The position numbers were made by a program, and so were the translations under genes. Positions 2,757-54,329 of a stretch of 64,000 nucleotides of DNA are shown here, piece by piece. The stretch comes from Stichopus chloronotus (taxonomy: Eukaryota; Echinodermata; Holothuroidea; Aspidochirotida; Stichopodidae). A model generated the notes under the pieces. It saw nothing but the letters and a program-made list of their open reading frames with translations. It did no database searches and was not told the DNA's origin. The first letter of the stretch is position 1. Every line of letters begins with the position of its first letter. The stretch lies in assembly GCA_021234535.1 (NCBI GenBank), contig CM037833.1, positions 5,044,709-5,108,708 of the forward strand. Direction: 5' to 3'.

Positions 2757-2760
2757 AACA

Positions 2761-5074: not shown

Positions 5075-5119
5075 GTAAGTATGTTTGTATTTCATTCCTC
5101 CAATAGAGTGGAGTATTAG

Positions 5120-5800
5120 GCTTATATTTTTGTCAGCATGGCAGAGTATGTACATCGGAATGACACAAGCAGAAAAGCAGCTCTCAATCAATATCCCTTT
5201 ACGGTTCACTCATAATCAAACATAATTCACAATAAAAAGCTACTTTTGCATTTCTTTTGAAACTCTACGACTTATTCAGGAGCTACAAAGTATTCAAAAA
5301 TTTTCCGTTAAAACCTTCTTCCTTGCACCAATGAAGCTACTAAAGGATTTTTTTTTTCGATTTTTGTTTGAATGATAGTTGTACTAGGTGAGAAAAATCT
5401 ATGTACCAACACACTATTTCTTTCAACAGTTATTACTGGTTGTCCGGTATATTGTAGCAGTACACGTAGGCATAGAAAGCAGGGGCTGGAGGATCTGGAG
5501 GGAGGTGTTTGATTAAATGTATTCAAAGTTTGCTTTTCCTCCCCTCTATGCACACCCACACAGACTATTCAAGAATGAAAACTCATTTTCCCTTCAATAA
5601 CAAAAAATCTTGAAGTTTAGAAATTCCTTTGGAAAATTTGCTCATTACATTCCACCAAAATGCATCTTTATAAAGACCTCCAAATGCTTAAAGAAGGTCC
5701 AAACCCCCACCCCTTCCTTTCCAGTCACCTTTGGACTTTCAAGCTGGGGCTAAGCTCATACCAGCTAGCTGGTGTGAGCTATTGTAATGGTGCGGCGTCA
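5120..5800. other. Spacer without recognisable gene
   Basis: Downstream of the last donor of the SAM gene. Short unsupported frames only; the continuation expected for SAMD3-like proteins was looked for and not seen. The sequence is A+T-rich with homopolymer T runs near 5348. Confidence 0.5.
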
Positions 5801-6395
5801 CTCTATCTATCTGTCTATCAGTCATCTGTCTATCTGTCTGTCTGTCCGTCCGTCCATCTATCTGTTCACAATTGTTCAAAATGCTTCTCCTCCGTCATGC
5901 TTTCATGGATTTGTCTGAAACTTGGACACATTGTTCCATAGGTGGTGGACCATTTAGTGTGTTCAGGAATTTTTGGTCCAAGGTCCTTTGTGGGCCCTCC
6001 CATTTATGAAATTCTACAAAATACTTCTCCTCCTACAGATTATATTGTACAATGCTGATCGTTTGCCACAATGATGTTCAGTTATTGATCCCTTCAGGGT
6101 GTTCAGGAATTGGTAGTCCAAGACCCCATGTGGGTCCAATGGCCCATTATGTGAAATTCTGTTTCAAATGTTGCTTCTCACACATACATCCATGGATTTA
6201 CATTTAACTGGGATACAATAATCCTTGGGTGGTAGTTCACGTGTGGTGTACAAAAAAGTTTCAGTCTAAAGTCCCATGTGGACCCTATGGTCCATTTAAG
6301 AAATTCTGCAAAGTTGTTCTTCTCCTACATATTCTCTTGTGCTGTACCTATTCACAGTACTGCACATACTGTTATTTGTTTGCTGAATAGTGAGT
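5801..6395 (+). repeat. Dispersed repeat copy 1, led by (TCTA/TCTG)n microsatellite
   Basis: A TCTA/TCTG/TCCG tetranucleotide run (5801-5864) leads into a repeat beginning CAATTGTTCAAAATGCTTCTC. The same microsatellite plus repeat recurs at 6815-7196. Within this copy the phrase 'aaatncttctcctcc...' recurs about every 140-150 bp (near 5881, 6021, 6167 and 6314), so the element itself looks built from degenerate tandem modules. No coding capacity is evident. Confidence 0.7.
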
Positions 6396-6814
6396 GCTAA
6401 TTATTTTTCAACGCTGTAATCACTGCAGAGGTACTTTTTTTTCGCCAAAGGTTCAGATTTCAGGTCATTTTGCACGTCAAAGGTCCATTGTGTAATGGAG
6501 ACTTTGCTTGGTGGCGGGAGGGGGAGGGATGTGGTGGGGTCAAAGGCTCTGTTTCATACCTGTACATAAATTGAATTTATTTCAAAAATGTAAATGATAT
6601 TTTGTAAACCTAGAATTCCATTTCGTAGGGATGAGGGAACATGAATATTACGTCAAATGTGCGTTTTTGGTGGGGTTGTATAGTCTTGGATCACACTTAA
6701 ATGAGATGATATTTGTTCAAAAATATGGGAAAATACTGAAATAGCTGATTGATTTTTTGTTGTCCTCTCAGTTTTTTGCTTTTTGTGTTGTACTATGATT
6801 CCTGTGATTTTTCT
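6396..6814. other. Spacer between the two dispersed-repeat copies
   Basis: G-rich patch around 6513-6540, otherwise A+T-rich. No gene or clear repeat recognised. Confidence 0.4.
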
Positions 6815-12146: not shown

Positions 12147-12790
12147 TAAGGGCGGGGAAATAAGCTTTTTAAGCTAACCGAGTTTACCCTTTTGAATTAA
12201 CCATTTGCACCATGGAACACTTACCCCGTCACTGGGGGAAGTGGTCCATTTGAGGTGTCAATTAGTAGCTCAATGTGAAGCAATATCTTGCCTGTCATTT
12301 TCAAGCATTAAGTGTTACCAAAAATAGCTTCACCAGTCTCCCCTATTAATCATTTCAACAGTTGGATTTGTCGATAATAGAAGAAAAAGCTACAACGACA
12401 AGCCCCCCTCTCGAATGTAGCGCTACAGGGGTACGTAACCTGTGAACAGTAATCCAATAACCAACATTGAAACGGGAAGCAGTGTTCGTATAAATATGAA
12501 GGTGAGCGTTCGGTTGGTGGTGGGGTCCACTTGCCTTTGTGTGGGCGGGCCGGCTGTACAGTTTTTCATATGCTAGTCTGTAAGCAGTTTCGTACATTGT
12601 TAAAGCAGGCTATGATACGTAAGTACAGTATGATACCCTTATAAATATTTATATCTGTTGTTTGGTTGAACGGCGTCAGCCCGTGAAGTGAGAACCCAGA
12701 CCTCCGAAGATCAGTGAAAATTCCGAGAAACCAATCCATTCTGTGTTCTGATCTTGTGGGTTAGGTAGACCTGAATAACCGATTACTACA
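12147..12790 (+). other. Possible LTR ending at 12790
   Basis: The stretch ends ...TACTACA immediately before a primer-binding-like site at 12792. TATA-like boxes (GTATAAATA near 12488 and ATAAATATTTATA near 12641) would fit an LTR promoter. The 5' border and a second LTR were not found. Tentative. Confidence 0.25.
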
Positions 12791-12791
12791 T

Positions 12792-12808
12792 TGGTGCCCA
12801 ACGTTCGG
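12792..12808 (+). promoter_or_regulatory. Retroelement primer-binding-site-like sequence
   Basis: TGGTGCCCAACGTTCGG directly follows a CA dinucleotide, as minus-strand primer-binding sites follow a 5' LTR; the TGG-GCCCAACG form is typical of tRNA 3'-end complements. No gag or pol frame follows, so the rest of the element is gone or this is chance. Confidence 0.35.
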
Positions 12809-15800
12809 TCCGCCGGGACGTAAATTTCGGATTATTTGTGAACTTGGCATTGTCAGTACCTCGTGTCTGGCAACCGCCATCTTTCTTTGAACTGCCCGGT
12901 CCTGCAGTGTATCCGCGTACACATTGTGTGTACTACAAGTTAGTGGAGATAGTAAGCAACCGGATTTAGATAGCCCGTACGTCTTATTTCACATTTCAAC
13001 ACCAACGTCTTCTCCAGGGCTTCAACAGCAGATAGGTTAACATCTGTCTTTGAAATACCAGTTAGCATATCACCGAGGAGCACACGAGTCCTGACAACCA
13101 GCTCAGAACTTAGCCACTTGGCAAGCCCCCTTGCGTCATCCTTACGTTTTGGAATTGGAAATAGCGGCTGTTTCCATGTTATCATTTTAGCTGGGGGTAG
13201 AACCCAGAAAAATAGTTTGTTACGACAATATCTAGCTCATTGAAGGAAAATCACATATGTGACGTTCGCTCATATTCACATAACAGTGACATTGTCGCAC
13301 CCATTCTATTGTCATTTTAAGCAGTTTCAACGGACTTCAGAGTACATATTTGTTGTTACCTTATGTTATATATGAATGAAAAACACTACCAATTATTTTG
13401 ACAGGAAAATTTAGGCAACCCGAGGGAAAATTGCGTAGATCACAAGACAAGATTACATACGTTACCAGCTTCATGCAATGTAAAAATTGCAGTTACAATT
13501 CTTGATTTAGCGGCCAAAAATGTAAAAAACCAGCCTTTACTAACGTCCTACCATTATTTTAATATTAAGCTGAATCTACTATTCTGACTTAAACGCACTA
13601 TGGCAGAGCGTGGAGCTACTTCAGAATATATTATAACCTCGATTCCTCTCAGCATTCTACAATTGCAGTAACACTCCTGTTGCAACGCAGTGCAACAGCT
13701 GCCCATCAATGTTATTTCTAAACGCAATTATTTCTGTCCGCATATAAAACCATGAAACAATCTATTCATTCATGATCACTCCTTTCCAACAGAACATACA
13801 CAACCCCCCAAAAAAAATTAAAACTAAACTTACGTTCATAGTCGAAATTCAGAATACTTTCATTTGAAAATCCCCAGACCCATGGGCCCCGATAACTAAT
13901 TTTTATGATGCACCTTGTCTAAAAATGTTCAATTTTCTGTCTAAATTTCGCTCCAAAATTGCTCCCCAAAAACTCAAGACAATCTTGGACAAAATTCTTT
14001 GGGACACCCCGCGCCCCCGTTCAATGTTGGCTATAGGATTGCTGTTCAAAGGGTACATTCACTTCTATAGCGCAACATTGGAAAGGGGCGCGGGGTTTCA
14101 TGTTATCCCCTCACCTATGAATACGACGTCGTGTGGTTTCCGTAAACTAAAACTGAGCTAAACTAAAGCAAAGACTGTATGTACGATGCTGTGTATATTA
14201 CCGGGGCTCGTTGAAGGTAAAGGAACATAAAGATGTGTTATACTATTGCGTCGATCTGGTGTTGTTACGGGAAGTGACCATCCTAGGCTACGTTAGGCTA
14301 AAACGAGTACATCACCAGGGTCGAGGTGTGGGAGGATTTGTTTCCGGGTTAACTCCAAAACGTTGAAACTGAACGTCAATAGAATGATGAGATTGGTTGT
14401 TATGGGCTGCGTAGACGCTAGCTGTAGAAAATTCCAGATCGTTCAATGATCTTACTACGAAAATTGGCATAGTAAGCAGCTCCTGATCAAACAAAATATA
14501 ACCCGCTGTGTAGGGCGGTAATCTGTATGAATTTGGCTCGATCGACAGTTCAACCAGAATACCAAATGCCGGGATTGGGTCTTCGATAGGGAAATACTGC
14601 TAAAACGTAATAAACCTGTAAAGTCCTCGGGCACAAGAGTTACGCAAATTCCAAATATTAGTTCGATGAAGTCTTGCGATTCGAAGTGCCGAATTCAGGA
14701 AGCAGGAGTTCTTTAAGATCGAGAGAGAAGTTTCTTCAAGGTTCACAATGTTTTATTAACTCTGCAAAATGATAACACGGTCAAAATAAGGTCAAAACGT
14801 CCTAACGCGAGTGCGGTCCCAGCTAAACTGAGTTCAAAATATGCTTCATGCGAAGATCACCCGAGCCCGCGCTAGTGCGTGGCAGACGCTGATTGGACCA
14901 TGAAGTAAAGGCATCCGTACAGCCTCTAGTGCTGCACTGTGATTGGCTATAGTTGGATATGAGTGTTTGCACACGGCCCGCAAGTAGTGCTTGCGATAAT
15001 GTCCTGACGTAGTAGAGTGGTCATTGTACACAGCATTGTCAAGTGCAACTCAGGATGCTAGTGTTACAGCCCAAACATTTTACTCTCCACTTTATACCAA
15101 ACTTATTGAAATTCATTGAAAAATAGCCAGTTCAAAAGGTTAGGGGTGGCCCAGTTCAGGGAATAGGGCATATGTTTGCGTTTTGAGGTGGAATTGAAAA
15201 CTGGACTGTAGCCTAGGTAATTTTCGTCCCACAAGACGAGAGGGAAATTTAAAGCGGCCCACAGGGCACTATCTGATGGAAGTAGGCTAGTGATGTATGC
15301 AATTATTATAGCTGGCATATGCTACTGTTGCAGCATAGTCCAATTTTTCTGCAAGGATTAAAGGGGAAAAAACATGTAAAATTTATCCATACAGGTAGTT
15401 AAGAAAAAGTAGATGTAAAATTCATAAATTGTCAAGGCAAGTATTACAGTTCCACATCAGCAAGTTTGGCAGCCACTCGTCAACACTTGCCAATTACAGC
15501 ATCACGAAGTCTCTTTTGCTCCAATGCCAAATCGAAGCACCTGATCACAGATAGCCCGAAAACTGATAGCCCAAACTGAATTTGGTAACCCTGCTCTTGC
15601 CATTGAAGACTCGTCCACCTAGAAAATTTGACGTCGCCATCGACTGTTCTGTGAAGGAAAAAGGCAGCAATTTTAGAACTAGATCCCTTCCACAGTTGGT
15701 AGTCTCCAGTTTGCGTCAATCCTAACGTGTGGTCCCTCCGCAGAACCTCAGACTTCCTGGTTACATATCATGCCTAACGTTTAGCATGACCTCAAGCCTG

Positions 15801-16670
15801 CAAAACTTTTGCTCCAACATCTGCTCACAGTTCTGAATGTACAATACAGCTGATGGTGGTACCCCTCTAAGGATGGTCTCCCCTCACTGTATGGAGGCGC
15901 ACGGTACAGTTAAAACGGTGGCGGTGAAACTCGGTGGCAAGACTGGCGTTGATGCAGGCAACGAGTCCACAGCTGGTCGGTATCCCTGTTGCTGTGGTAG
16001 AGGTAGAAGTGGAGGAGACAGACTGACACTTGTGGGCATACAGGAATGCTTTGTGGAATTGATGCTGGCAAGGTTGGAACCGATGAAATTACGTCTTTAA
16101 TCGGTGAGACTGGAGCTGCGTGCCAAAAAATGTGTTGGGCCATATTAGTATTACCACTTCCATTAATGTCATGGGTTGGCTCCTGTATGATGTAATATCA
16201 TCATATCACCACATTACATGATTGTAATTATGCTTAAGCATTAAGTAGTGAGACAAACGAAAAAAAAAATAATACCACCAATGGATATGCAAATTGATAA
16301 GTCTGATAAGTCTCTTCCGGTAGGATGTCTGGTTAGGCTGCCGTAACAACACAAACTTGGTTCGGCTAACGTTATGCTAGTACTGTATACGACAGCAATT
16401 CAAGAGGAACATTGACTTATTCTTGCGGGTGAGTAACGTTGAACAGGAATTGGCTAGGACAGGTGTCCTTCAGATAAGAGTCGAGAAAGTCCTCGGATGG
16501 TAGGGTTAAAGTAACAGCTAAACTTCTGTAAATTCAGTCTGCGTTTCCTGCCTCGAGTGTTGTCACAATTTTTCCTACAGGTTTACTGTAGTAACGAACC
16601 ATCACGCAAAGTTGTTTCTCAGATCCAACGTCAGTGCTCTTATCTATGTAAGTAAATACTTTTCTTCTTT
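12809..16670. other. Long spacer without recognisable gene
   Basis: About 3.9 kb with frames under 90 codons and no motif recognised in them. Two inverted CCAAT boxes (ATTGG near 14891 and 14941) sit in a locally G+C-rich patch at 14800-15010 and could mark an old promoter; no linked gene was found. Otherwise non-repetitive by eye. Confidence 0.4.
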
Positions 16671-17070
16671 TTAATCATTGATCAGTGCTTCCTTCATTGA
16701 TGAACACAAGACATTCTTAATAATTGCAGAGCACTTTGTTCTGTGCTCAGAAATACCTTGTGATATGTTTTTTATTGGTTCCCCCAGATGATCAAGTGTT
16801 ACAATATGGGGACATAAACGAAGTTCTGCCTTCTTAACGGAGGTCTCTGTTTTTCTTGTTACTCCGACAACAAAAAGCGATCCAACGCTTTTCCTTGCGC
16901 TTACTTGTGGCGGCATGATTGCAGAGATCGTTGTGATGTGCTCGGATGGTACACTTACAGAACTTGCAAGCGGCTTTCGTATCCTCGCCGGGAACACGTT
17001 GAACCCAAGACTTCAGGTTCTCGTCCTTGCCCCAATTACGGCAATATTTTTTACTATAATATTTGGACAT
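16671..17070 (-). pseudogene. hAT-type transposase N-terminal fragment (BED finger)
   Basis: The minus-strand frame from 17070 carries a BED-like finger: RVPGEDTKAACKFCKC followed by HHNDLCNHA. The second zinc histidine position is altered (SKRK where a K-K-H is usual). A frame change near 16850-16900 leads into KKAELRLCPHIVTLDHL and EHRTKCSAIIKNVL, which match the segment that follows the BED finger in hAT/ZBED-like proteins. The frame then stops at 16671, just before where the catalytic core should start. It is a truncated, frameshifted remnant. Nearby hAT pieces at 39-40 kb and 62.5 kb belong to different copies. Confidence 0.65.
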
Positions 17071-17697
17071 ATTTCCTGGCTTAAATACAGAATTTCAAGA
17101 TACACTTGAAACGGCTCGAACTGAAAAGAAGGACGCTCTCGATACGTTAGCCAACAACTGTAGCACGTGTATCTGGGGCAGGCGAAACCCATATTTGTCC
17201 ATGTCGAAGGTTTATTGTAAGTAAAAATGGTCAAAACCCCAAAACAAGCCCCAAAATCCGCATACAAAGCAAGAAACCGCAACCCGCCGGAGCAATAAAT
17301 AAACCGCCCACGTGGCAACAGTGACTATGCCTCCTCGCAAATATACAGAAGTCACGCAGCTACGCAACTGTATACTGCATTGCGTGCACATCTTTAGACA
17401 AAGCCTGATTGGTTTACATAAAGGACAATGCAGTAGCTTATAACACATGCTAAGGCAACTGTTAGGATTGGTCTCAACAATATGTCAATCATAGTAACAA
17501 TCTGACGTGATAAAGTTGACAAGTGCCCAATAACTAATTATAATGTATTGTGTTCATATCAAATGTACCTGTTGCTAAATAATTGTTTTTCCATTTCACT
17601 CAAAGTTTGGTTGGGATTTACTTGTTTTACTTTTCTTTATAGGCTATATTTTCCGTCAAAGTAGCATCATAACTTATTGGTTTATCTTTTTATACTT
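17071..17697. other. Spacer between hAT and Ulp1 remnants
   Basis: No gene recognised. Inverted CCAAT words near 17407 and 17466. Confidence 0.4.
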
Positions 17698-18240
17698 CTA
17701 TGGTCTACACGTATCGAAGCCAAGTAGAGGGTTGTAAATGGTGGTCCTTTTTGCTGGAACATCAACGAAGGATTCCATCTTTTCTCCAAATATCAAAGAA
17801 TTTGCATAATGAAGTACATACAGTCCACAGTCGTGGCCCGTTTGTTGAAGTGGAAAGTTGATTCCCCGATGGTCGTCTTAACTGTCCATTTCTGGCATCT
17901 GAGAGGACTTCCTTCTAGTAGAGATTTTCTGTAAACCTAGTGAAACGTTTTATGTCGTCACTGGAAATGCAGTCCTTGAGTGGATCAGGAGAGTATAGGT
18001 TTTGGTTGTAAATTCGCTGCTAAGAGAATCCAGTGGAAACCCTCCTGGTTTATGGGTATCAGAATCCATCTCCAATCAACTATTCTCTGGCTTTTATACC
18101 ACTTTCGAACTTGAAGATCCTCAGAACCTTTGGAGCTCATGTGAAATGTACTGTATACAAGTTCAGCAGACAATGGGCACAGTGTACTCTTCATATGATC
18201 TTCCTGTCGTCTTTGGTTCGGCATTTGGTTTGGCATTATT
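17698..18240 (-). pseudogene. Ulp1-like (C48) cysteine protease domain, decayed
   Basis: On the minus strand, frame A (from about 18240) contains KWYKSQRIVDWRWILIPI then NQEGFHWILLA, matching the substrate-groove tryptophan and catalytic histidine region of Ulp1/SENP proteases. A second frame (LYSPDPLKDCISSDDIKRF) and a third frame continue to PLQQTGHDCGLYVLHYANSL, where Q and C are the oxyanion glutamine and nucleophile (GAC TGT GGA at 17832-17824). The last frame runs to TAG at 17698. The two frame changes and a stop show decay. Ulp1 domains deSUMOylate proteins and are common passengers in large transposons. The YqaJ remnant upstream on the same strand suggests one composite gene. Confidence 0.7.
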
Positions 18241-19039
18241 ATAGCATAAAAAATATATTGCTTAGTACCTTCCTTCCAAGCTACGCATCCCGGTGAGTCT
18301 TAGTGCAATGGTACTGTTGATGCCATTTCATGAAATAGCCTGATTCCAGCCTTCGTGAACGCAATTACATAGCCGGGAACGACGGATATTTTGTCTGATG
18401 TAATTCTTTAACCCCACCTTTTCCTTCATGACGAGACTGGTGGTGATAAATCGGTCAGACTCTAGTTTCTTTAAGACGTCCAACATGCTGTCGGGATGGA
18501 CAGTGGGTTACTCATTGCGCAACTTTTCTCGTTCCTCTGCTCGGACAGGGCGCTCCATTTCATCGGTTTTGTGTTCGATCCTTCTATAGTACTTCACATT
18601 GCATGTCAAGGTTTCATCCATTGACCATGTTACAGATACAGTGCATATCGGACGTCTACAGCAGTATGCACTGACAGAAAATGTGAAACCAGGGGCTTTT
18701 GTTTCAAATTTTGGAATATGTTCAAAAGACACAATCTTGACCATTAATAAATCAGAATACTCATACCAACATCTTTGAAAACACTTGCTAACAATATAGA
18801 ACCAAAAATGATTGGAAAATGTCACACCCTCTCCGAGTAAACAGATTTTAACATGCCCGGAAAAAAGTCATTTTTACAAATTTGGTTATGAATGATCTAC
18901 TAACACAGTATGCTTATTGGTTTGAAAACATGCATTTCTCCTTACAATTACATGGCACATTGCGTAGACCATGGTCTGTTACTGTCTACAACGTTCTAAC
19001 GTCTGACAGGATGTGTACAAAAATTATTTTCAACCATCT
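18241..19039 (-). other. Inter-domain region between YqaJ and Ulp1 remnants
   Basis: Minus-strand stretches such as EEREKLRNE(stop)PTVHPDSMLDVLKKLE look coding-like and lie between the two enzyme domains, so they may be the linker of one larger broken gene. No domain recognised. Confidence 0.3.
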
Positions 19040-19500
19040 CCTTGAACTAGTTTCTGAAAAAGTAGTCTGAGCATTTTCGGATTTCCTGCCAAGAACTATT
19101 GTGAATGGAATACGAATACTTATGTAACCATGCCTGTAGTACCGAAACAATCACACCATGACCTTTGAGTGACGCCCATTCGCAGCTGAACCTGTGTAAG
19201 GTACATAGTGCAATCCAGGTTTCCATGGCTTGGTATGCTGTGTGAAACACCTTAAAGGACACTTGATTTCTAAAACACCAATACCGCATCATGGACAATC
19301 TATCAGGCCATCGGGAGATGCTCTGAGGTGAATTCTTTAGTGAGCAACGAACAACCCACATTCATGAACTTTAATTTTGGGATGGCCGAACTCCCTCTTC
19401 TGACATACTTCTCCCTGGCCTCACTCTCCATCTCCCTTCCATATTTAAGTGCTGGCAAATCATGGTTCACACTGCTATACAACCACCGCCTTATTCTGAA
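19040..19500 (-). pseudogene. YqaJ-like (lambda-exonuclease-fold) nuclease domain, decayed
   Basis: Minus-strand motifs appear in the order expected for the YqaJ/RecB-type nuclease fold: LPALKYGREMESEAREKYV (19453-19402), SPDGLIDCP (SPDG at 19318-19307), then CGIGVLEIKCP (EIKCP at 19270-19256) and finally LTQVQLRMGVTQRSWCD (near 19194-19148). The D of SPDG and the E and K of EIK are the usual metal-binding and catalytic residues and are intact. A TGA at 19291-19289 and at least two frame changes disrupt the frame. YqaJ enzymes degrade DNA from an end and are found in phages and in some eukaryotic mobile elements. Position just upstream of the Ulp1 remnant suggests a shared origin. Confidence 0.7.
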
Positions 19501-20029
19501 AGCAAACGACTGGTTCTTGCCAAGACACTGGGCAACAGACCCGGTGAAAAGAGGTCTTGGACCATACTGATTTGTACACAGGCAAAATCATAGGTGATAT
19601 ACACAGTGCTTTTTTGTGAAGCCAAAACTCCATACAATACATCAGAACCAATGGTAACAATTTAGTCCCTTCTGTTGCTTGGCCTTGCTTTACGAATGCG
19701 GTGTGTTTACAATTCCAGTCACGAAAAAAGCTGAAGAATGTTTAGCTGACACTAGCATTTCCCTTTTTGGTAATTCTTTTGAAGAGGTTCTGGCCAGTTC
19801 GAACTGGTAACTCCAGGGCATGTTGTGAGTTTGATGGACTTTAAAGGGGCATAGATGTGATAAGCCTTATTGCAATTTGCAGAGATTCACAGCTGTTTCT
19901 GTTTTGTAAAATAAATGGGATATTGCTGTATATTGCAGTTCTAAATTAACATCTTCAATTCATTGCATTAATTGAAATGGCTTTTTTGATATTCATGAAT
20001 TCAGACATATCATTTTACAGTATGTGTAT
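19501..20029. other. Spacer upstream of the YqaJ remnant
   Basis: May include the lost N-terminal part of the YqaJ gene on the minus strand (weakly coding-like at 19475-19660). Nothing else recognised. Confidence 0.3.
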
Positions 20030-20380
20030 TTCAAGTACAAGGAACCATAGTGCCCATAGTCTGTTGTGAAATCATGCAAAATACTTCTTCTCTTACTGAT
20101 TGCATGTATTACACTGTTGATGGTCACATTAGTGCTATGGAAGTGGTTCCATGTGGGTGCATATTTGTCATGTTTGGGGTCCAATATCTGAAATGGGCCA
20201 TATTATAAAAGCATGAAGTATGTTTTTCTCTCTACAAATTTTATGTTACAAAAGTGAGAGTTCATGGTCAGAAATGGACCATATGGGCTCCCTTTTACTT
20301 CATAATTTACATTATGTGCTCTCCATCTGCTCAAGGAACCACAGTGCCCTTGGGCTCTTGTTTATGTTTTAGGTCACTGC
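20030..20380. repeat. Decayed member of the 5.8/6.8-kb dispersed repeat family
   Basis: Shares phrases with the repeats at 5.8 and 6.8 kb ('gaaatcatgcaaaatacttcttctctta', '..gctatggaagtggttcc', 'atggaccatatgggctccc') but lacks the leading microsatellite and is more diverged. Confidence 0.5.
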
Positions 20381-22236
20381 ACACCCCTACTTTCAAGAGG
20401 TGAACAAGAAAAAGAACGTACAACCGGTCCTGACACTTGAAAACAGTTGCTCGCCTCCCAAGTGTTCAGAATTTCTGGACAGTCTGAGTAATGTGTTTAA
20501 TTTCACTTGAGCACACATGGATATCACCGTCACCAAATGACTTCAGTATCTACAAAAACAAGACTACATATAGTCATTATCAAACACCGTCAAAGCATTT
20601 CTAAAACTTTACATTTCTTGTTTTCAGCTACTACTGTAATATGCTAATATACTACTAATATTTAGTACACCACCTCTAATAAAGAGTGACATTACTCTGC
20701 AGACCCACTGCATTTATCTCATCCAGGTGTTCCTCGAAGAAGGCCCTTAACGGTATGACATTGATGTTACGTACGAGGATTCTATATAACAGCTTTCCTT
20801 TCTTTTTTCTTTCAGTAAATTCAACCACTGAGTCAAGATGACCTACACCTTGCTATGTCGTAGGTTAAAAGTCCTAAACGCGTCTTTCAAATTGAACCAT
20901 TTACGATTCCTAAATTTTTTCGGGAACTTCTTTTTAAGCCGTTCACACTCCTTTTTTACCAGGAAGCGTCTTTCCGATGTGGTGGTGGATATCCCTTTAC
21001 AGCACTGCTTTGTCTTCAGGTGTCCAAGAAACCCGCTTTCGATGCTTTGATTTACCTGTTAAAAGGAAGTTAGGAAACCGGTATGGCTTTTAACAGTGCC
21101 GATGAAAGTATTGTAATACTTTTACAAATTTCACAACAAAAATCAGTTGAATATTCTCAGCTATTTATGTAAGCAAGATGGCCGTAAAGGGAGGAAAAAT
21201 CTGAGCATTGCAATTTGAAATAATTCTTTTAGTCCTACATAGAACTACCCAAATAATTTGTTTGGAATTCCAAACAACTGAAATGTTGTCTTTGCAGCAA
21301 TCCATCTGGGAAAGCATTGGAAAGAAGTTTCTTCTTACAACATTAAAACAAGCTTTTATCGGCAGTTTTTGCCCCAACAAAGCCCACGTTCGTAGTTGAT
21401 ATCAGTTTCTTGAGAAACTTTGAAATTTTTACACTTTCACTCAATACGAACACACTAATCAACAATGTTCTTGCATGTAGAGGCATAAATCCATTATATT
21501 GACCACACAGAACGTGAAGTGTTAATTCAAATAGGATACTAATAAAACGTTGAAAAAACAAAACAATTACAAACACAACAAACAACACAACAACCAAGTA
21601 GGGAACAATTCATGACAACACTTATAGAAGGAGTCTAGATTCATTCGCATTGTATTAAAAGGGAGGCAGCGGAGAACATTCCAAATGCAAACATTGATCT
21701 TCATCACCAACATCAACTTGAATGTCCAAGCAAAACCAAACAAAAAGGGACATTTACTACTATGTTTTAGGGTTGAGAAATGATTTCAAGTCTGCCTTAT
21801 GACACGGACAGCCGAATGCCAGAGCACAGTAAGGATAAAAGTTGTCCACAGGCATATGGTTTAATCGATGTATGAAAGAATAGCATACAGTTTTCCTTTT
21901 CTCTTCTGAAAGGCCTGAAAGAGATGCATATAACAAGTTGACCTGACAGTAATCTTATCATTATTGAATTGAAGTTTGATGTTATGAAAGACAAGACATC
22001 TAAATACATATACATATGCCTCGGTGTCAAAGAGTCTATACCACCTATTTTACAACTTCACATCTAGTTGACAAAATATTAGACTTCTGCCTCATCCGCT
22101 CATTTGCATGCAATCATTACTTGTTAATGACAATTAAACGACCGTACCAATTTTTGTGCCACCCACCTTCTCAAAACATTGGCGGCTTAGCACCTGCATT
22201 TAAAGCATTATTCCGAACGAAGTAATTGTCCAAGGA
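20381..22236. other. Spacer, no gene recognised
   Basis: Only short frames; A+T-rich. No repeat borders noted. Confidence 0.45.
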
Positions 22237-22305
22237 TAAGTTAAATTTATTATTATTAGCTTATTATATTATTATTATTTATTTATTATTTATTATTAAG
22301 TTAAA
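22237..22305. repeat. (TTA)n / (TTAT)n microsatellite
   Basis: About 70 bp made almost only of TTA and TTTA units. Confidence 0.85.
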
Positions 22306-22970
22306 TATTTAAATGACATTGCTATGTGAGTCTTTTTGAACTGGAATTGCCCAATAAAGGAATCACAAGCATATGAGTCAATTTAATTCACTGGATTTGG
22401 TGGGTCTTGAAGTATGAGCAGTAATTACATTTTCTGTCTAATATCCTTATAATGACACCTCTCTGGTTGCAGTTACTGATACCAGTGTACTCTAGCAATT
22501 TCAAACAGACAGCATACTGTATTGTATGTGTTGTTCAGCCCTACCGGAGTCCACTACAATCAATAACTTGGCAATTTTTGTCTTTTCAACGATGCTAATC
22601 AATAGCCTGTAGTACTCCTTGTGGACCTGGAGACTAGGCCAAGATTTACTTCCGATTACTCAGACTGGTTACAAGGTATCTGAAATAAGTTGGGTTAATG
22701 CGGCCTCCTCGCCGGTTTTGCTTCTTCTAAATTTGCTTCTTCTGAGAGCAATCGCAGGCAGTCTGTTCCCTTACTGGTCTGTCCGCTTGATATCGCCCAA
22801 AGAAGTATACATTCCCATCGCCTACATCACCTTAACTGAACAAGTGTCTACATTGCTTGCAGACAAAATGGTGGCAAAACAATCGGCATCTTTCTTCGTC
22901 GATTGCCACGGACATTGTGGTGGCAAAAATGTAATTTGAAATACTGCTGCTGTTGGCAATAGTTGAAATG
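22306..22970. other. Spacer flanking the tandem array
   Basis: Unique sequence left of the array; the minus-strand frame of array copy 1 runs into it to about 22832. No independent gene recognised. Confidence 0.4.
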
Positions 22971-24560
22971 AGTTCCTGGTCTTCGCTTGTTAAAAAGAAC
23001 CAGCGAACAAGCTTGACAAGGACAAGTGGCGGGCATCTCTTGTAATTTTTGCAGTTAAGGGAACAACCATTTTGCAATTCCTGATGCACAGCTTCCACAC
23101 TACTCTCAATGATTAAAGAAAACTTTTGAACTTCTTGTATTTCCTCTGATGGAGGAATGTCAGGGCAGGTCATGAGACTCGGTTGACACAGTCTCCATTG
23201 AGTAAGGTAAGAAACTGCCTAGCATCAAACTAATCATGTGGTTGTACTTCCCTAATAGAAAGTACCATTTTAATGCTTGCCAACTTTTTAATGTTGTGGC
23301 CAAGTTTAAGAGCGAGGGATGAATGCACAAACCCATCCACGTTCTCCAAATCCTGGTCAGCAGATTCTCCTGACAAAGCCCTGACCGCACTCACCACTGA
23401 GTTATAGTGGGAAGGATGCAGAAAATCACCTCAAATCATTAAGGCTGTTTACCTCTGACTCAAGTGAAGTAACAATCGAGCACTCTCATTTTCCGCAAAA
23501 TGTATTGCCGTTTCTTAATCGGATCCATTCCTACACATTTCATGGTGAGGTTCTCATCCAGTTGCAACTATGGTAATGTTGTCTGGTCTCATGCATTTAA
23601 CAACCTTGGTCATCTCCCTTCCACTCACTGGATGAGCAAACTGGAGAAGGTTGCTCTGCACACGTGTCCGAAACAAGTAGGGCAAGGACCATAATCCATT
23701 CCTTTTATCCCACTCCCTTGCCCTCCTTCCAAGAATTAATTCTCCCTTCCCGGTCGAGAAAACCTTTTTCCCCTTTATGGCGAAGAAATTCCAACTCTTT
23801 TAACTCTTTCGGAACTGCTGATTGGCAAAGCTTCCAGTCTTGCAACAACTCCTTTATTACCATGGCACTCCAAGGTGTATTTGCTTAACTTGGTTTGCGA
23901 GTTACTGAAAAAAAAAACACATTTTACTGATGGAAAATTTCTCACAAAAATAGCACCACTGGGTCTTTGAGGCCCCCTCAGGTCATCATTCACAGTACGA
24001 AGCAATCAATATCATAATTAGGCATTACATTGCAGTCTATCGTCACTTGTATTTCAGTCTGGTCAGAATCAAACTCATGAAGGCTACTCCTGTTTTCCTT
24101 AGCGGAGAGTCATTTCTTCATTTATGAAGCTTGCTGGGATCTGGGATAATGGGAAATTTTGGGTGGAGAAAAAAACCATGCCCCCATCCCCCCCCCAAAA
24201 AAAGTGATGATCTTATCACGTAAAACAAATAGATCATTTTAACATGCCCCTTTAAAAGTTACCTACACAAGAGACTTCAGTCTGCCCTCTCAGTGAATGC
24301 ATCCAACCTGAATTGAGATAAAACCAAAACAAGTGCAATCTATTACATTCATCACAACAGCAATGACACAGTGCGACTGAAGTTCAATGCTGTCTTGTCG
24401 AGCAGTTCATAGAGCAGTCACATACTTGCAGAGCCAATTTTTCAAGTGGTACCAATAGGAGGGTGGTGTTATAAAGTCTTTTTACATCAACTGTTTTTAA
24501 ATAAGTTTTTTCAAACTTAATTCTTAAGTAGTTGAGGTTAATAGTTTCAATTTTGAATAT
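22971..24560 (-). pseudogene. Array copy 1: zinc-finger/FNKRRPG-type protein remnant
   Basis: Reading the minus strand from right to left: a degraded KGEKV...GKGELI..RR segment; then GMDYGPCPTCFGHVCR (CxxC zinc-finger start) in another frame; then VVSAVRALSGESADQDLENV and SLALKLGHNIKKLASI; and finally LVLFNKRRPG near 22990. These blocks, in this order, resemble a multi-copy family of uncharacterised fish and cnidarian proteins that I know only by motif. Frameshifts and stops separate them. Copy 1 also has a 12-bp local duplication (aactcttttaactcttt near 23792) and lacks the 47-bp block of its sisters. Confidence 0.5.
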
Positions 24561-26120
24561 TGCCTCAATAACCTACCTTAACTGTTCAAAAGAACCAACT
24601 TTGCAAGGACAAGTTACTGGCATCTCTTGTAATTTTTTCCAGTTAAGGGAACAACCAGTTTGCAATTCCGGATGCACAGCTTCCACACTACTCTCAATGA
24701 TTAAAGAAAACTTTTGAACTTCTTGTATTTCCTCTGATGGAGGAATGTCCGGGCAGGTCATGAGACTCGGTTGACACAGTCTTCATTGAGTATGGTAATA
24801 AACTACCTAGCATCAAACTAATCATGTGGTTGTACTTCCCTAATAGAAAGTACCATTTTAATGCTTGCCAACTTTTTAATGTTGTGGCCAAGTTTAAGAG
24901 CGAGAGATGAATGCACAAACCCATCCACGTCCTCCAAAGCCTGGTCAGCAGATTCTCCTGACAAAGCCCTGACCGCACTCACCACTGAGTTATAGTGGGA
25001 AGGATGCAGAAAATCACCTCAAATCATTAAGGCTGTTTACCTCTGATTCAAGTGAAGTAACAATCGACCACTGTCTCCCATTTTCTGCAAAATGTATTGC
25101 CGTTTCTTAATCGGATCCATTCCTACACATTTCATGGTGAGGTTCTCATCCAGTTGCAACCATGGTAATGTTGTCTGGTCTCATGCATTTAACAACCTTG
25201 GTCATCTCCTTTCCACTCACTGGATGAACAGACTGGAGAAGGTTGCTCTGCACACGTGTCCGAAACAAGTAGGGCAAGGACCATAATCCATTCCTTTTAT
25301 CCCACTCCCTTGCCCTCCTTCCAAGAATTAATTCTCCCTTCCCGGTCGAGAAAACCTTTTCCCCTTTATGGCGAAGAAGTTCCAACTCTTTCGGAACTGC
25401 TGATTGGCAAAGCTGCCAGTCTTGCAACAACTCCTTTATTACCATGGCACTCCAAGGTGTATTTGCTTTAACTTTGTTTGCGACTTACTGGAAAAAACCC
25501 TTTTTTGCTGATTGAAAATTTCCTACAAAAATAGCACCACTGGGTCTTTGAGGCCCCCTCAGGTCATCATTTATGGTACGAAGCAACCAATATCATAATT
25601 AGGCATTACATTGCAGTCTATCGTCACTTGTATTTCAGTCTGATCAGAATCAAACTCATGAAGGCTACTCCTGTTTTCCTTAGCGCAGAGTCATTTCTTC
25701 ATTTATGAAGCTTGCTGGGATCTGCATTGGTCACATTCAGGGAAGGAATGATAACTTTAGAAATAAGAGGGATAATGGGAAATTTTGGGTGGAGAAAAAA
25801 ACCATGCCCCCATCCCTCCAAAAAAGTGATGATCTTATCACGTAAAACAAATAGATCATTGTAACATGCCCCTTTTAAAGTTACCTACGCAAGAGACTTC
25901 AGTCTGCCCTCTCAGTGATTGCATCTAATTTGAATTGAGATAGAACCAAAACAGTGCAGTCTATTACATTCATCACAACAGCAATGACACAGTGCCACTG
26001 ACGGTCAACGCTGAAACCAAAATGATAAGGAAATTGAATGTTTTTTCTGTCAATCGACTGTCTTGTTGAGCAATTCAGTGGTACCAATATGAGGGTGGTG
26101 TTGTAAATTCTTTTTACATC
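24561..26120 (-). pseudogene. Array copy 2
   Basis: Same content as copy 1. The segment LELLRHKGEKVFSTGKGELI is open between 25445 and 25146 on the minus strand, with the CxxC finger one frame away. The right-hand 800 bp are almost identical to copy 3. Confidence 0.6.
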
Positions 26121-27506
26121 AATTGTTCTCCTGGTCTTCGCTTGTTGAAAAGAACCAACTTTGCAAGGACAAGTTGCTGGCATCTCTTGTAATTTTTGCA
26201 ATTCCTGATGCACAGCTTCCACACTGCTCTCAATGAATAAAGAAAACTGTTGAACATCTTCTGGTTAGGGTAGTTGCGGAACCTTCTGGTATTTTCTCTG
26301 ATGGAGGACTGTCAGGGCAGGTCATGAGACTCGGTTGACCCAGTCTTCATTGAGTAAGGTAATAAACTGCCTAGCATCAAACTAATGATGTGCTTGTACT
26401 TCCCTAACAGAAAGTATACCATTTTAATGCTTGCCAACTTTTTAATGTTTTGGCCAAGTTTAAGAGCGAGAGATGAATGCACAAACCCATCCACGTTCTC
26501 CAAATCCTGGTCAGATTTTCCTGACAAAGCGCTGACCGCACTCACCACTGAGTTATAGTGGGAAGGATGCAGAAAATCACCTCAAATCATTAAAGCTGTT
26601 TACCTCTGACTTTAATCTCCTCAAGAGAATTAACAATCGAGCACTCTCATTTTCTGCAAAATGTATTGCCGTTTCTTAATCGGATCCATTCCTACACATT
26701 TCATGGTGAGGTTCTCATCCAGTTGCAACCATGGTAATGTTGTCTGGTCTCATGCATTTAACAACCTTGGTCATCTCCCTTCCACTCACTGGATGAGCAA
26801 ACTGGAGAAGGTTGCTCTGCACACGTGTCCGAAACAAGTAGGGCAAGGACCATAATCCATTCCTTTTATCCCACTCCCTTGCCCTCCTTCCAAGAATTAA
26901 TTCTCCCTTCCCGGTCGAGAAAACCTTTTCCCCTTTATGGCGAAGAAGTTCCAACTCTTTCGGAACTGCTGATTGGCAAAGCTGCCAGTCTTGCAACAAC
27001 TCCTTTATTACCATGGCACTCCAAGGTGTATTTGCTTTAACTTTGTTTGCGACTTACTGGAAAAAACCCTTTTTTGCTGATTGAAAATTTCCTACAAAAA
27101 TAGCACCACTGGGTCTTTGAGGCCCCCTCAGGTCATCATTTATAGTACGAAGCAACCAATATCATAATTAGGCATTACATTGCAGTCTATCGTCACTTGT
27201 ATTTCAGTCTGATCAGAATCAAACTCATGAAGGCTACTCCTGTTTTCCTTAGCGGAGAGTCATTTCTTCATTTATGAAGCTTGCTGGGATCTGCATTGGT
27301 CACATTCAGGGAAGGAATGATAACTTTAGAAATAAGAGGGATAATGGGAAATTTTGGGTGGAGAAAAAAACCATGCCCCCATCCCCCCAAAAAAGTGATG
27401 ATCTTATCACGTAAAACAAATAGATCATTGTAACATGCCCCTTTTAAAGTTACCTACGCAAGAGACTTCAGTCTGCCCTCTCAGTGATTGCATCTAATAT
27501 GAATTG
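26121..27506 (-). pseudogene. Array copy 3
   Basis: Near-identical to copy 2 over 26661-27490. It is shortened by a deletion of about 24 bp near 26197 and ends abruptly at about 27506, where the sequence jumps into the middle of copy 4. Same broken minus-strand frames. Confidence 0.6.
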
Positions 27507-28121
27507 ATGTGGTTGTACTTCCCTAATAGAAAGTACCATTTTAATGCTTGCCAACGTTTTAATGTTGTGACCAACATCCACATCCCCCAAATCCTGGTTA
27601 GCAGATTCTCCTGACAAAGCCCTGACCGCACTCACCACTCAGTTATAGTACAGAGGATGCAGGAAATTATTAACGCTGTTTACCTCTGGCTCCAATCTTC
27701 TCAAGTGCATTAACAATGGAGCACTCTCTCTCATTTTCTGCGAAATGTACTGCCGTTTCTTTATCGGATCCATTCCTTACACATTTCATGGTGAGGTTCT
27801 CACCCAGTTGCAACTATGGTAATGACGTCTGGTTTCATGCATTTAACAACCTTGGTCATCTACCTTTCACTCACTGGATGAGCAGACTGGAGAAGGTTGT
27901 TCTCCACACGCATGTGTTTCAGTCCTTTCCTCTCTTTTCCTAGACTTTTCTGTCCAATACAGTGATAATAGGAATGCTTCCACAAGTCTGTTATAAGAAA
28001 ATAGCCCAAACGAGGGTAAGGCCCATAATCCGTTCCTTTCACGTAGCAATATGGGCGCAGCACACTCGGCCATGGATGTGTAAATAACGTGTGCAAGTGT
28101 TCTGTGAAATGTAACAGTCAC
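27507..28121 (-). pseudogene. Array copy 4, partial and most diverged, 5'-most on the minus strand
   Basis: Begins mid-unit at 'tgtggttgtacttccctaat'. Its finger region retains more sequence than the other copies: YGPYPRLGYFLITDLWKHSYY then HC, readable as a C2HC-type finger with its first two cysteines altered. The Copy 1-3 version (PCPTCFGH) keeps those cysteines. Copy 4 may be the oldest unit, from which the others expanded. Confidence 0.5.
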
Positions 28122-28304
28122 GCGTACGCGTCACAAACATTTCAGTGCAAATCGTGTAAAAGTGTCTCAAGTAATCCTTTGATTTCCTTTATTTCTCAGA
28201 TAAGCACGCAGCCACCGTTGGAATTTTGTAATAATTGTAAGAAAATCTTCACATTCATTTGCATTTCTTAATTTATTAGCGGGCCAAAACGTACGGTCAA
28301 CAAC

Positions 28305-28781
28305 TTAAGGGTGCACACCACTGTTAGAGGTACGGCTTTCCTGAGAAAAGTAGTACCGGGAGTACACCGTCAATTTTAGGTCCATTCTAGGTGTAAATTT
28401 TTCATGTTAAGATGATCAGTTGTGGTAGATTTTTTATGGATATGAAAGGGGAGATGTCAATGCCTGAGTGACGGCAAATTTAGATGGATCGGAGGTGATT
28501 TAGGCTGTTTCAATAATTGGTGTAGAAAAGGGTTGACTTCCGTCACTTTGCGGATTAATATGACCAGGTGTACACCCTCTAAATTTCTTCCCCTTGTATC
28601 TCAAAATCTAAACGGTCATGCTATGGTAAATTTGTTGTGCCATGATAGGCCAACTTATTGGCTTTCATGTGAGGGGTAGCTTAGGGGGGTTGTGAACTTT
28701 GACAAGACTGTGGGGGGTAGGAAACAGAAGTAATTTAGTGTGTAAGTCAATGGAACAGCTAATGGTGGTGTGCCCCCTTAA
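28305..28781. mobile_element. piggyBac-type MITE with TTAA target duplication
   Basis: Direct TTAA copies at 28305-28308 and 28778-28781 enclose a 469-bp body whose ends are inverted: GGGTGCACACCACTGTTAG on the left and CTAATGGTGGTGTGCCCCC on the right. TTAA duplication with a GGG start is the hallmark of piggyBac insertion. The body is non-coding. The 51-kb piggyBac-derived gene is a possible but untested source of its transposase. Confidence 0.8.
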
Positions 28782-29216
28782 AGCATGGAAGATGACATTA
28801 AAATTAGATATGATCGCTCAGTTTAAATATGGTTGCATATCTTGAAATATTAACTTACGTTTTAGGGAAAGACAACCTAATATGTTATGTTGCACCTTGT
28901 AATAAAAGAACATACATATCATATCATATATCATACTGAGGTACCAGGAAACCGTGACACACTTTTCCAAAAAATTTATCCGATGAGAACTGTGACCTCT
29001 GACATTTGATCTTAAATATTGATGGGAGACACAATTTCAGACCATGAGTCACCTTTCTATCAACTGTAACCGCCTTTGCCTTCTACGAGTACTTGATTTT
29101 CAAATCCTCTGAGTACAGAAAATGTAATGAGTATGAGTCCGGGCGCGAATACTGGAAGTCTGATAATGTTAAAAATAATAATGAATCTTTAATCATTCAC
29201 TATGTTCCTGTGTTTG
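28782..29216. other. Spacer
   Basis: Includes a short ATATC-rich tract near 28913-28938. No gene recognised. Confidence 0.4.
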
Positions 29217-29880
29217 TCACACACGGGGATTTCTAAGCTTGACCGTTTGTCGGTGGTATGTGAAGGAAACTTGACATGCATGTTTGGAAAAGGCAAAATA
29301 TTTGCACAAAACACCCTGATGAATCCTATTAAAGGGTACTGTCAAGTTCTTATGTCCTCGTGTGTCGACCTCTCCTGAAATATTTCTGTACCTCGTATGT
29401 TCTTTTAACCTAGGACTTGTGATTTGTCTGGTTTGCACACCCAGGAACCATACTTTTACGTGGTTGTTCTGCGTCAACCGCTCAAATTAAAGGAGCCGGG
29501 AGGCCAACAAGTTTCACATAAAACATACTTGGTTTTGATTCGCCATCGTCAGTACTATATACAGTAGTGTACTTGTGAAGTTTTGCCACTTCTTGGTCGT
29601 TACCATCTCTCGTTGATACCCGTAGAAAGTGTAGAATACGACAAGTAACCAACATTCCTGATCCAGAGAGGTCTTTGAATGCGACATACGGAGAACATGT
29701 GCCCGCCCTTTCACTTTTCAAGCAGGAGTAATTGTACATCTTCCTCATCTTGTTTGTCGCCTCAACATATTTAGTTGGTTGGCCGACTACGTCGATACCA
29801 CTTGCTAGTAACCAGCAGTCTCCAATTGACTGAGGTCAATGCTTTGCAAATGTGATCTTCTCCCCATTAGCACACTGGAA
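29217..29880 (-). pseudogene. Unrecognised minus-strand coding remnant
   Basis: From an acceptor-like TTCTCATTTTAG (AG near 29890) the minus strand reads MFQCANGEKITFAKH, one TGA, then PQSIGDCWLLASGIDVVGQ and on through KMRKMYNYSCLKSERAG to a stop at 29482. It is open for over 120 codons except for that one stop. A second frame (29477-29217) follows directly. The composition looks protein-like, but I recognise no family. It could be a broken host exon or an unlisted transposon gene. Confidence 0.3.
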
Positions 29881-31640
29881 CATCTATCTAAAATGAGAAG
29901 AAAAAATGATATGCGTGTTGGAACAAAGATACAGTAACATGCATCGAAAACACGGAAATAGTGATTAATTTTGCATGTGTATAAACATGGAATAAAAGAA
30001 GAAAAGAGAGGGAAAGCTTTGGCATTTTCTACCGTTATTGGAAAAGCAAAATCTCGAAGAAAATATGAAATCCCCATGACCTATAATATTGTGCAAGCAT
30101 CTGCATTATTATGAAGTCATCGAGCATCAGTGACGTTGTTTAAACGTTGAAGTAAGGTAGTGTGACAATTATTGTTGTAAAGGCAAAATCATATAGGCCT
30201 TGGCTGTGTACGTACAGAATGCAATTAGTGTTTGTGCCTGCTTCATCCATTGAGTTGCTCGAACTGGAAGCCGCACTTTCGGGGACCAGTTTTGGAAGGA
30301 CCAAAGCTTGACAAAACTCGTATATCTGCATAAAATGGTAAGTTCTCATAATTTAAGATAGTGCCTTGTTCGGTTGTGTTGTAGTACAAGGACAAGGAGA
30401 AGGATTTCTTATAGTACTAACTTTGCGTCCTAGGATTTCTTTTTAACATCATTATGTGAGTCATCAGCTGGAATATATTCCTCAAGAAAGCCAACTTGAG
30501 ATGTCGTAACTGTGAAAGCTTTTTGATTCTTTGACACGTAGATATACTGTTGCAAGTTACAGATGAAAAAGCTTCATTGTGATTTAACGTACAGTTGGTT
30601 TGACCGTACGGGTTGACATTATGGTGACATGGTCGTAGTCAGCTTCTTGTTTTAAATCTGGGAAAATCATGCTGGAAGTAAGATACCATCATACTTAAAA
30701 AGTGACAACAAATTGATGCAAGCCAACAGTCTTAACCTGTCGCGACCGCAAATAACCTTGGCCTGGTGTTTTTCACAAGTTACTGACTTACCCTGTAACT
30801 TTCAATTGCGGTGATCTCTGGAGACTTTCGATTCAGGATCCTGCTCTTTCAGAAAAGAGTTGAAACGCGCAAAGCCAAACATCCAAAGTATGCAAGATGG
30901 TCCGTAGGTTTCCAAGTAGTACGGTGCATGATGCAGCATATGTGTGAGGAGTGTCTGAAAGAAGAAGGCAGTTGTGAATAATAATAAATAAAAGATCCTC
31001 CACCAATACAACAGCATTCACAAACGTGCTTTCTCGTGTATTTCATATCACATTGGTACAATGTAATAACAAATAAAGAAGAATCAATTCCAAAAGTGTC
31101 CCAAATGGAGTACTGCAAAGCAAAGTCCACAACGTTCAATTAAGTCTGAAGAGAATGACAATGTTGATGCACATGACAGCTCTACTTTCAGTTGAATGAC
31201 ATCATCCTCCTATTTATATCACCTTGTCCCCCCCCCTTTTTTTGATGCTTTGTCAACATGCTTTCAAACTTTATTTTACACTGACTTCACACGAATTTTG
31301 AATGCGTAGATGGCAAAGATAATCGCTATCATGGTGCATTACCGTGTTTGCAAGGTTTGCAAGCTACGACCTGTATCCGCATCAAATGACCTTTGACCTC
31401 TTAACAGTAAAAGATTCTACTTATCAAGTGCGACCAATGTCAGTAGTTTAAGGTTAAGTTGATACAACTTCCAATTGGCGAGGTAACTAACTTACTAAGA
31501 AGAATTCATGTAGTAGGCCTAAACTCTGGTGCCCTCAAATGATCATTGACCTCAAGCACGCAAACAAACGCATTGCAACGAATTCCTTGCCTGCATTCGA
31601 ATTAAAAAGTTTAGCACATGAGTTAATATGTCAATATGTC
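29881..31640. other. Spacer left of the LINE, no gene recognised
   Basis: A minus-strand frame at 30349-30140 (VPESAASSSSNSMDEAG) is serine-rich and could be an exon but lacks support. A run of C then T lies at about 31229-31244. Confidence 0.35.
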
Positions 31641-31658: not shown

Positions 31659-32561
31659 ATGCAAGGGAAAATACCTGTTGATCCTGATGTAAATTCTGTG
31701 CATGATTCTCAAATCGACAGTTGCAAGTACTATAATTATGATTTCTTTAATAACATTAACCCTTACATTTGGGATAAGAAATTAACTTTGTTTCATGTTA
31801 ATGCTAGGTCGCTTAATAGCAACTTTACCAACCTCTCAATTTCTCTTAGCTCTATTAAGCATAAATTTTCCCTCGTTGGAATTACCGAGACTTGGCTTAA
31901 TGATAATGAAACACTACATACCGTCAATAATATCCCAGGTTACAACTTAGAACAAACCCCCAGAGCAAGACGAGGGGGTGGGGTTGCTTTATACATTAAT
32001 TCTGAACTTAGCTACAAAGCCCGTCCAGACCTTAGTATTTTCGTGGATGGTATTTTCGAGTCTATCTTTGTGGAGGTCTATAATCGACAGTCTCCTGTTA
32101 TAGTAGGAACTATTTATTGTCCAGTTGGTATTAAGGACGGTGTCTTAGACATCATCTCTACACCACTTGACTCTCTGAATAACGAAAGTAAGACTTGTTT
32201 CCTCATGGGCGATTTCAATTGTAATCTTCTTAATCAGGCCGATAACAGTTGTACCCAATTTGTCAACCTTTTTTATTCTTACTCTTATCGTCCACTTCAG
32301 AGTATACCCACTAGAGTTACTTCACATTCTGCCTCACTGCTTGATGTAATTGTCACGAATAGTTTATGTTTAAATTCTGTTTCTGGTGTAGTAGTTGATG
32401 ACATTTCTGATCATTTTCCAGTTTTCACGCTTACTGATTTAGGTGTTGCTATGTTGAGAGAAAATTCAATCTTTTTTAAAAGAGACATCAACCCTGTTAG
32501 TCTTGACCAATTACGCTCCGCAGTTCAAAACGAATCCTGGGCAGATGTCTACAATTCTTAA
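31659..32561 (+). CDS. LINE ORF2 endonuclease domain (APE-like)
   Basis: 300 codons. Visible APE-family landmarks: LTLFHVNARSLNSN (first strand), VGITETWLND (catalytic E), RRGGGVALYI, MGDFNCNLL (catalytic D/N) and DDISDHFPVF (catalytic D-H). The domain nicks target DNA to prime reverse transcription. The frame ends at TAA 32559-32561, but the following 150 bases keep matching the same protein in another frame (NHLNNCLPWVAHTKK), so this stop is a frameshift effect and not the true C-terminus. Confidence 0.8.
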   Translation: MQGKIPVDPDVNSVHDSQIDSCKYYNYDFFNNINPYIWDKKLTLFHVNARSLNSNFTNLSISLSSIKHKFSLVGITETWLNDNETLHTVNNIPGYNLEQTPRARRGGGVALYINSELSYKARPDLSIFVDGIFESIFVEVYNRQSPVIVGTIYCPVGIKDGVLDIISTPLDSLNNESKTCFLMGDFNCNLLNQADNSCTQFVNLFYSYSYRPLQSIPTRVTSHSASLLDVIVTNSLCLNSVSGVVVDDISDHFPVFTLTDLGVAMLRENSIFFKRDINPVSLDQLRSAVQNESWADVYNS

Positions 32562-32724
32562 ATATATTCTTAAATCATTTAAATAATTGTCTTCCTTGGG
32601 TAGCCCATACCAAAAAGTGTAGTAACCGAAATTCGAAGCACTGGATCACCCAAGCTAACTGAACTCTTGTAAAACAAAGAATCGTTTATTCAAAAGTTAC
32701 CTCCGTAGTCGGTCTGCTGCTGCT

Positions 32725-54168: not shown

Positions 54169-54329
54169 TTTGTGTGAGGGGGCCTCACCCGAAGCAACTT
54201 TGAAAAGGTCGGGCTTCAAGCGATGTTTCAGATCAGGAGCCCATCTTTCTAGCCCATCGGCTTCAAACTTCGGCAATAAAAAGGTCAAGTCAGGAACAGA
54301 TGGGTAACTCATTTCACACCCCACCATGT

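Follow-up and report, generated by a model that had tools for sequence, protein, structure and literature searches.

Two enzyme remnants lie side by side on the minus strand of a Stichopus chloronotus chromosome, a YqaJ-type exonuclease followed by a Ulp1-type protease, and the question raised by this locus is whether they once belonged to a single large mobile or virus-derived element, as a sequence-only reading of the DNA had proposed, or came together by another route. The window, by which we mean the whole 64,000-nucleotide stretch that was analysed (C5:5044709-5108708), was compared with the rest of the genome (719 Mb in 267 contigs), with proteins of other sea cucumbers and with domain and structure collections. 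The coordinates of the features are given in Table 1.

Table 1. Features of the YqaJ and Ulp1 block and its surroundings, in window coordinates.
Feature	Position	Strand	Basis and remarks
Duplicated stretch	12469-37329, right end may go further		inverted, gapped duplicate at C5:5944000-5956325
Interspersed repeat of ~560 bp, beside the YqaJ remnant	19808-20363	minus	own-genome DNA search
YqaJ exonuclease remnant	19452-19045	minus	tblastn, Pfam, PDB exonucleases; frame changes and two in-frame stops
Junction stretch between the remnants	18717-19044	minus	no match to the Ulp1 element in local alignment
DDE-like domain, first part (the "linker")	18151-18716	minus	L053 3678-4330; P0005 193-409, P0002 671-884; 5'-truncated at 18716
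Ulp1 remnant, protein-level extent	18170-17701	minus	joined reading (X at each break) scores 43.6 bits in Pfam
Ulp1 domain and 3' tail	17532-18160	minus	L053 5937-6569; P0005 933-1089; ~1.6 kb lost before it

The identity and order of the two domains were borne out. When the translations were joined, with X put at stops and frame changes, the YqaJ remnant scored 41.3 bits in Pfam (cut-off 22, E 2.4e-10) and the Ulp1 remnant reached E 3.9e-11 (cut-off 20.7), about twice the cut-off in each case, these scores being flattered by frames that were picked by eye. Among the unjoined frames, 17985-18299 reached 21.7 bits for Peptidase_C48 (E 2e-4; the cut-off is 20.7), 17698-17877 stayed slightly below it (20.4 bits, E 5e-4), and neither of the two unjoined frames over the YqaJ stretch matched YqaJ in Pfam. 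The unjoined C48 matches are independent of the choice of frames by eye, as is the comparison of the window with two sea cucumber proteins related to the Ulp1 element, P0002 and P0005 (E 7e-39 to 1.5e-7). Against solved structures, the Ulp1 piece matched SENP5 (E 2.4e-5) and also SENP1, while the YqaJ piece matched exonucleases, 3syy at E 3.6e-6 and the lambda enzyme at E 1.1e-3. YqaJ proteins from the same genome matched 19387-19253 and 19203-19045 in a tblastn search covering the window together with its duplicate (best E 7e-11). The catalytic motifs are still legible (SPDG, EIKCP, HW and Q...DCG), and both remnants are dead, as had been thought, with frame changes and stops; in the YqaJ stretch, one in-frame stop lies ahead of SPDG and one between SPDG and EIKCP. 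The joined Ulp1 pieces, used as a protein query, gave no match at E<=0.01 among 207 candidates; a Pfam run on 30 window frames gave a single weak match (E 0.036), and Rfam gave none in the window.

The idea that nuclease and protease form one element did not hold up within the reach of the searches described here. Genome-wide, there are at least 12 matches to YqaJ (PF09588) and at least 27 to Ulp1 (PF02902), with the broken remnants of the window in neither list. Among these 12 and 27 matches, the nearest YqaJ and Ulp1, which lie on C1, are 176 kb apart, and two of the YqaJ matches are on contigs without any of the Ulp1 matches listed. Intact homologues of the two domains were found only in separate genes, as far as tested. 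Protein searches were run in both directions. In the 12 YqaJ loci, P0002 and P0005 found one weak match at E<=0.01 (L019, E 0.008, to a PHD finger), and seven YqaJ query proteins gave none at E<=0.01 against L043-L056, which represent 11 of the 27 Ulp1 places, seven of these 11 belonging to the window's family. As a control at E<=1e-10, the YqaJ proteins recovered 11 of the 12 YqaJ loci (L019 was missed), and P0002/P0005 recovered 9 of the 14 stretches L043-L056, missing L043, L045, L047 and the flanks L055 and L056. Within that coverage, a single protein or element containing both domains was rejected on the genome distances, the two-way protein searches and the stop of similarity at window position 18716.

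The DNA between the domains had been described as a coding-like linker. Part of it, 18716-18151, corresponds to the DDE-like domain that the Ulp1 element carries; for 19060-18790, no similarity to that element was detected. The best local alignment of 18790-19060 with the Ulp1 element scored 26, against a mean of 29 and a maximum of 45 for 200 shuffles. Similarity to the family ends, going upstream, at 18716. Upstream DNA was read in three of the seven places of the window's family (L052+L046, L053 and L054), and beyond the position equivalent to 18716, L052, L053 and L054 carry the PHD finger and ubiquitin hydrolase or the corresponding DNA.

The better-preserved YqaJ genes of this genome sit in ISL2EU-like transposons. 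In the 9.9 kb read around each of the 12 YqaJ matches, a transposase was found at eight places, five by Pfam and three by DNA identity. DDE_Tnp_4 and/or HTH_Tnp_4 were present in all five transposase frames tested (L010, L013, L015, L018 and L020), on the strand opposite to YqaJ, and the DNA of L009, L011 and L014 is at least 96.5% identical to transposase-bearing copies. L016 resembles ISL2EU copies by eye only, and at L012, L017 and L019 no transposase was visible in the 9.9 kb read. Pfam recognised YqaJ in all four frames run (L010, L011, L018 and L020), with a PHD finger too in the frame of L010, where YqaJ also scores as Viral_alk_exo. A SWIM-like CxC...CxH motif upstream of YqaJ was read by eye, Pfam making no call. 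The YqaJ copies include three groups with a within-group likeness of 94-98% over 5.5 to 8.7 kb. Of the seven copies viewed, five have clear inverted ends bordered by AT (for example ATAGGGTGATTGCAC...GCAATCGCCCTAT), a putative target duplication only, since AT is its own complement; in L011 and L013 the left end is indistinct.

In the published descriptions, ISL2EU elements of the PHIS superfamily combine a DDE, HTH and THAP transposase with a YqaJ ORF and make AT target duplications (PMC4482050, PMC9179366), the role of their extra ORFs being given as unknown (PMC4482050). The copies in this genome share the YqaJ gene, the opposite-strand DDE/HTH transposase, the inverted ends and the AT edges. 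They differ in that Pfam called no THAP in the five transposase frames, whose first exons may be missing, and in that they read AGGG or AGAG after the AT, not GG.

The YqaJ remnant of the window resembles the YqaJ of these copies, with 48.9% identity to L011 over 45 residues and 42.6% to L020 over 47 residues, and has in common with the ISL2EU proteins a Cys-containing insert between SPDG and EIKC. Neither a SWIM-like part nor a PHD finger was detected in it. It also differs from the published ISL2EU elements in having no transposase beside it, the best match in the window being at 44801-44872, 25 kb off (E 0.096), and no ISL2EU ends recognised around it among 25 of the 38 short inverted pairs in 12400-30000. 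Because there is no transposase alongside and there are no recognised ends, we call the remnant ISL2EU-type by similarity only.

For the Ulp1 remnant, five of the loci fetched for Ulp1 (L046 and L048-L051) have 64-72% amino-acid identity to the Ulp1 of the window. In the product of L052, which lies upstream of L046, a PHD finger and a ubiquitin hydrolase (UCH) are followed by a domain with CDATGSVAWKEG, and L046 carries on from there with a lysine-rich stretch and then Ulp1. The longer relatives have the order PHD finger, ubiquitin hydrolase, DDE-like domain and Ulp1, as pieced together from L052+L046, from L053 and from P0002 and P0005, which overlap each other; all four parts were found in one chain in no single protein among the relatives examined. 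Two copies on separate contigs, L053 (C11:22168300-22175800) and L054 (C2:13949900-13957400), are 99.87% identical throughout the 7.44 kb compared, a stretch that ends inside the identity, and this near-identity suggests very recent copying. L052+L046 and L053 share 97.7% identity across 6.8 kb, and the seven fetched copies of the window's family are spread over C2, C8, C10, C11 and C15. The coding part of L053 runs through three frames (1690-4560, 4473-4865 and 4847-6403), a break-up that could reflect an intron, a lesion or frameshifting.

Compared with L053, window 18716-18465 corresponds to 3678-3941 and window 18467-18151 to 4031-4330 (83-86% DNA identity), and window 18160-17532 corresponds to 5937-6569 (84.8%). 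The window copy has no counterpart to L053 upstream of 3678, to a short segment around 3941-4031 or to the stretch of about 1.6 kb past 4330. Window 18716-17532 is collinear with L053 and P0005 except for one internal loss. By this collinearity, the Ulp1 remnant is to all appearance a 5'-truncated and internally deleted copy of a multicopy family. L055 and L056 contain a 74% inverted pair of 214 columns, 13 kb apart, for which no link to the Ulp1 element could be recognised.

Two further kinds of frame were seen among the Ulp1 loci. L047 605-2800 (C1:568500-571300) is another long frame, in which Ulp1 scores 36.7 bits and the PHD and SprT-like matches stay below threshold; its upstream part has what we take to be a transposase-like look. 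L044 851-3349 (C5:28437200-28441200), with L043 and L045, represents another family, in which UCH (26.7 bits) is followed by a Ulp1-like match that lies below the cut-off in the frame run (16.6 bits). The combination of hydrolase and Ulp1 may recur in several elements.

Relatives of the family were sought in a protein search that took the L053 frame (residues 120-957) as its query and scored the 7998 candidates sharing the most words with it. This query found P0001 (BSL78_02337 of Apostichopus japonicus), P0002 (1389 aa, from Holothuria leucospilota, named "Ubiquitin carboxyl-terminal hydrolase 36") and P0003, an unnamed protein. With P0003 as the query, P0005, a 1089-aa A. japonicus protein with Ulp1, was added, as were P0006 (from A. 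japonicus, named "putative poly", with 99% identity to P0003 across 40% of the query) and the unnamed P0004. Pfam detected PHD and UCH in P0001 and P0002, UCH in P0003 and Ulp1 in P0005, and the C-terminal end of P0002 lies about where Ulp1 would start. The named relatives come from two sea cucumber species and from no other hosts.

The middle domain of the family contains DATGS, SSDRS and EAYNK in order, at 842, 920 and 1183 of P0002 and at 364, 442 and 698 of P0005. No Pfam transposase was matched by it in the L052/L046 frames or in P0001-P0003, P0005 and P0006, and structure predictions from shallow alignments were unusable (mean pLDDT 34.8 and 30.8). The label "DDE-like" is accordingly a provisional one taken from these motifs. 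Their D...D...E order and closing E-x-x-N presumably resemble those of Mutator-like DDE transposases, from which the middle domain differs in matching no Pfam transposase family. Mutator-like elements with Ulp1 domains exist.

Based on its domains, motifs and dispersal, the PHD-USP-Ulp1 family may be a transposon. Our tentative proposal, held with slightly less than even confidence, is that the Ulp1 remnant stems from an undescribed group of animal DNA transposons, recently active in a sea cucumber, whose product would unite a deubiquitinase and a deSUMOylase, the element's own means of removing ubiquitin and SUMO marks, with a PHD finger that reads chromatin and a DDE transposase that falls in no Pfam family. 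Among the open-access papers listed, none describes a transposon that combines a ubiquitin hydrolase with Ulp1, as far as the abstracts show, and the family may already be in print in subscription papers. The oomycete elements CryptonF and CryptonS encode a C48 (Ulp1) peptidase (PMC3212892); the family described here would likewise pair a candidate mobile element with a Ulp1-family protease. Cryptons differ in using a tyrosine recombinase, for which Pfam gave no match in the L052/L046 frames, P0001-P0003, P0005 and P0006, and the sea cucumber family adds the PHD finger and the ubiquitin hydrolase.

The block has a second copy on the same chromosome. The duplicate covers at least 25 kb of the window in pieces that are 76-100% identical by blastn; in the own-genome DNA search, the best piece of the duplicate scored 1862 bits. 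Stops in both remnants are common to window and duplicate, therefore both elements were dead before the copying took place; the duplicate has extra losses, including 36 bases within Ulp1. The use of this copy, at C5:5.94-5.956 Mb, as independent evidence for the pairing was rejected, given the homology of at least 25 kb with shared lesions. No third copy equally close was present among the matches listed, the best 40 of 2290 candidates, where diverged ones may hide behind the repeat next to YqaJ; this repeat of about 560 bp occurs in at least 38 other places at 89-96% identity among the same best 40.

The window contains further repeated and mobile DNA. At 22996-28308 there is a tandem array of three to four units of about 1.57-1.59 kb, the best parts 93-99% alike, which is in the duplicate too. 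A transposase frame on the minus strand (51709-52668; DDE_Tnp_1_7, 125.2 bits in Pfam) is one that we take to be of the piggyBac type. By eye, frames for the endonuclease and reverse transcriptase of non-LTR retrotransposons were read on the plus strand at 31659-34391 and 53435-56344, and long plus-strand frames at 80-2753 show C2H2-like fingers, the rest being transposon-derived in look.

Taking these results together, the block is very probably made of two decayed and unrelated elements that adjoin. One would be left from the exonuclease ORF of an ISL2EU-type transposon, the other from a PHD-USP-DDE-like-Ulp1 copy that has lost its 5' part and an internal stretch. Of the suggested mobile-DNA origin, it stands that both domains are real and probably come from mobile DNA; that they are parts of one element is unsupported. 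It could be argued instead that YqaJ replaced the PHD and ubiquitin hydrolase half in a low-copy Ulp1 lineage, giving a chimeric YqaJ, DDE-like and Ulp1 element. Strand and order agree with a possible fusion, the junction sits where the PHD-USP half would be expected, and a PHD finger can occur in ISL2EU YqaJ proteins too; the window and the duplicate are both so arranged, but the duplicate belongs to a larger copied segment and does not count separately. Diverged copies of the pairing may exist among candidates beyond the best 40 scored, which were crowded by the repeat; however, there is no equally close third copy among them, the window copy starts within the coding stretch of L053, and YqaJ is in none of the five relatives run through Pfam (P0001-P0003, P0005 and P0006). 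We regard such a chimera as very unlikely.

It is a little less probable again that the remnants are separate and that YqaJ came from a host gene, a virus or an element other than ISL2EU. The window copy has no detectable SWIM-like part, PHD finger or transposase, there are three YqaJ places without a visible transposase (L012, L017 and L019), and the Viral_alk_exo score of L010 indicates a domain shared with viruses. However, the remnant finds its best matches in ISL2EU proteins (L011 and L020), which have the Cys-containing insert as well, and most YqaJ places, eight of the 12, have a transposase. On the preferred reading of two adjoining elements, the pairing of YqaJ and Ulp1 is ordinary decay.

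The two elements could have worked in different ways before they decayed. The ISL2EU exonuclease presumably processes DNA ends as the element moves. In the Ulp1 family, the DDE-like domain would act as the transposase and the PHD finger could bind chromatin, while the deubiquitinase and the SENP-like protease may take ubiquitin and SUMO off the transposase or off host silencing factors. Both elements lost their frames first, and the segment was then duplicated on the same chromosome.

To summarise, a puzzling pair of domains is explained, and a mobile element with YqaJ plus Ulp1 is removed as a false lead. The by-product of the analysis, the PHD-USP-Ulp1 family, outweighs this main finding in importance. 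If the family is a transposon, the H. leucospilota protein named as a ubiquitin carboxyl-terminal hydrolase 36 would be a misnamed mobile-element protein, and the use by mobile elements of ubiquitin and SUMO removal against host silencing would become testable.
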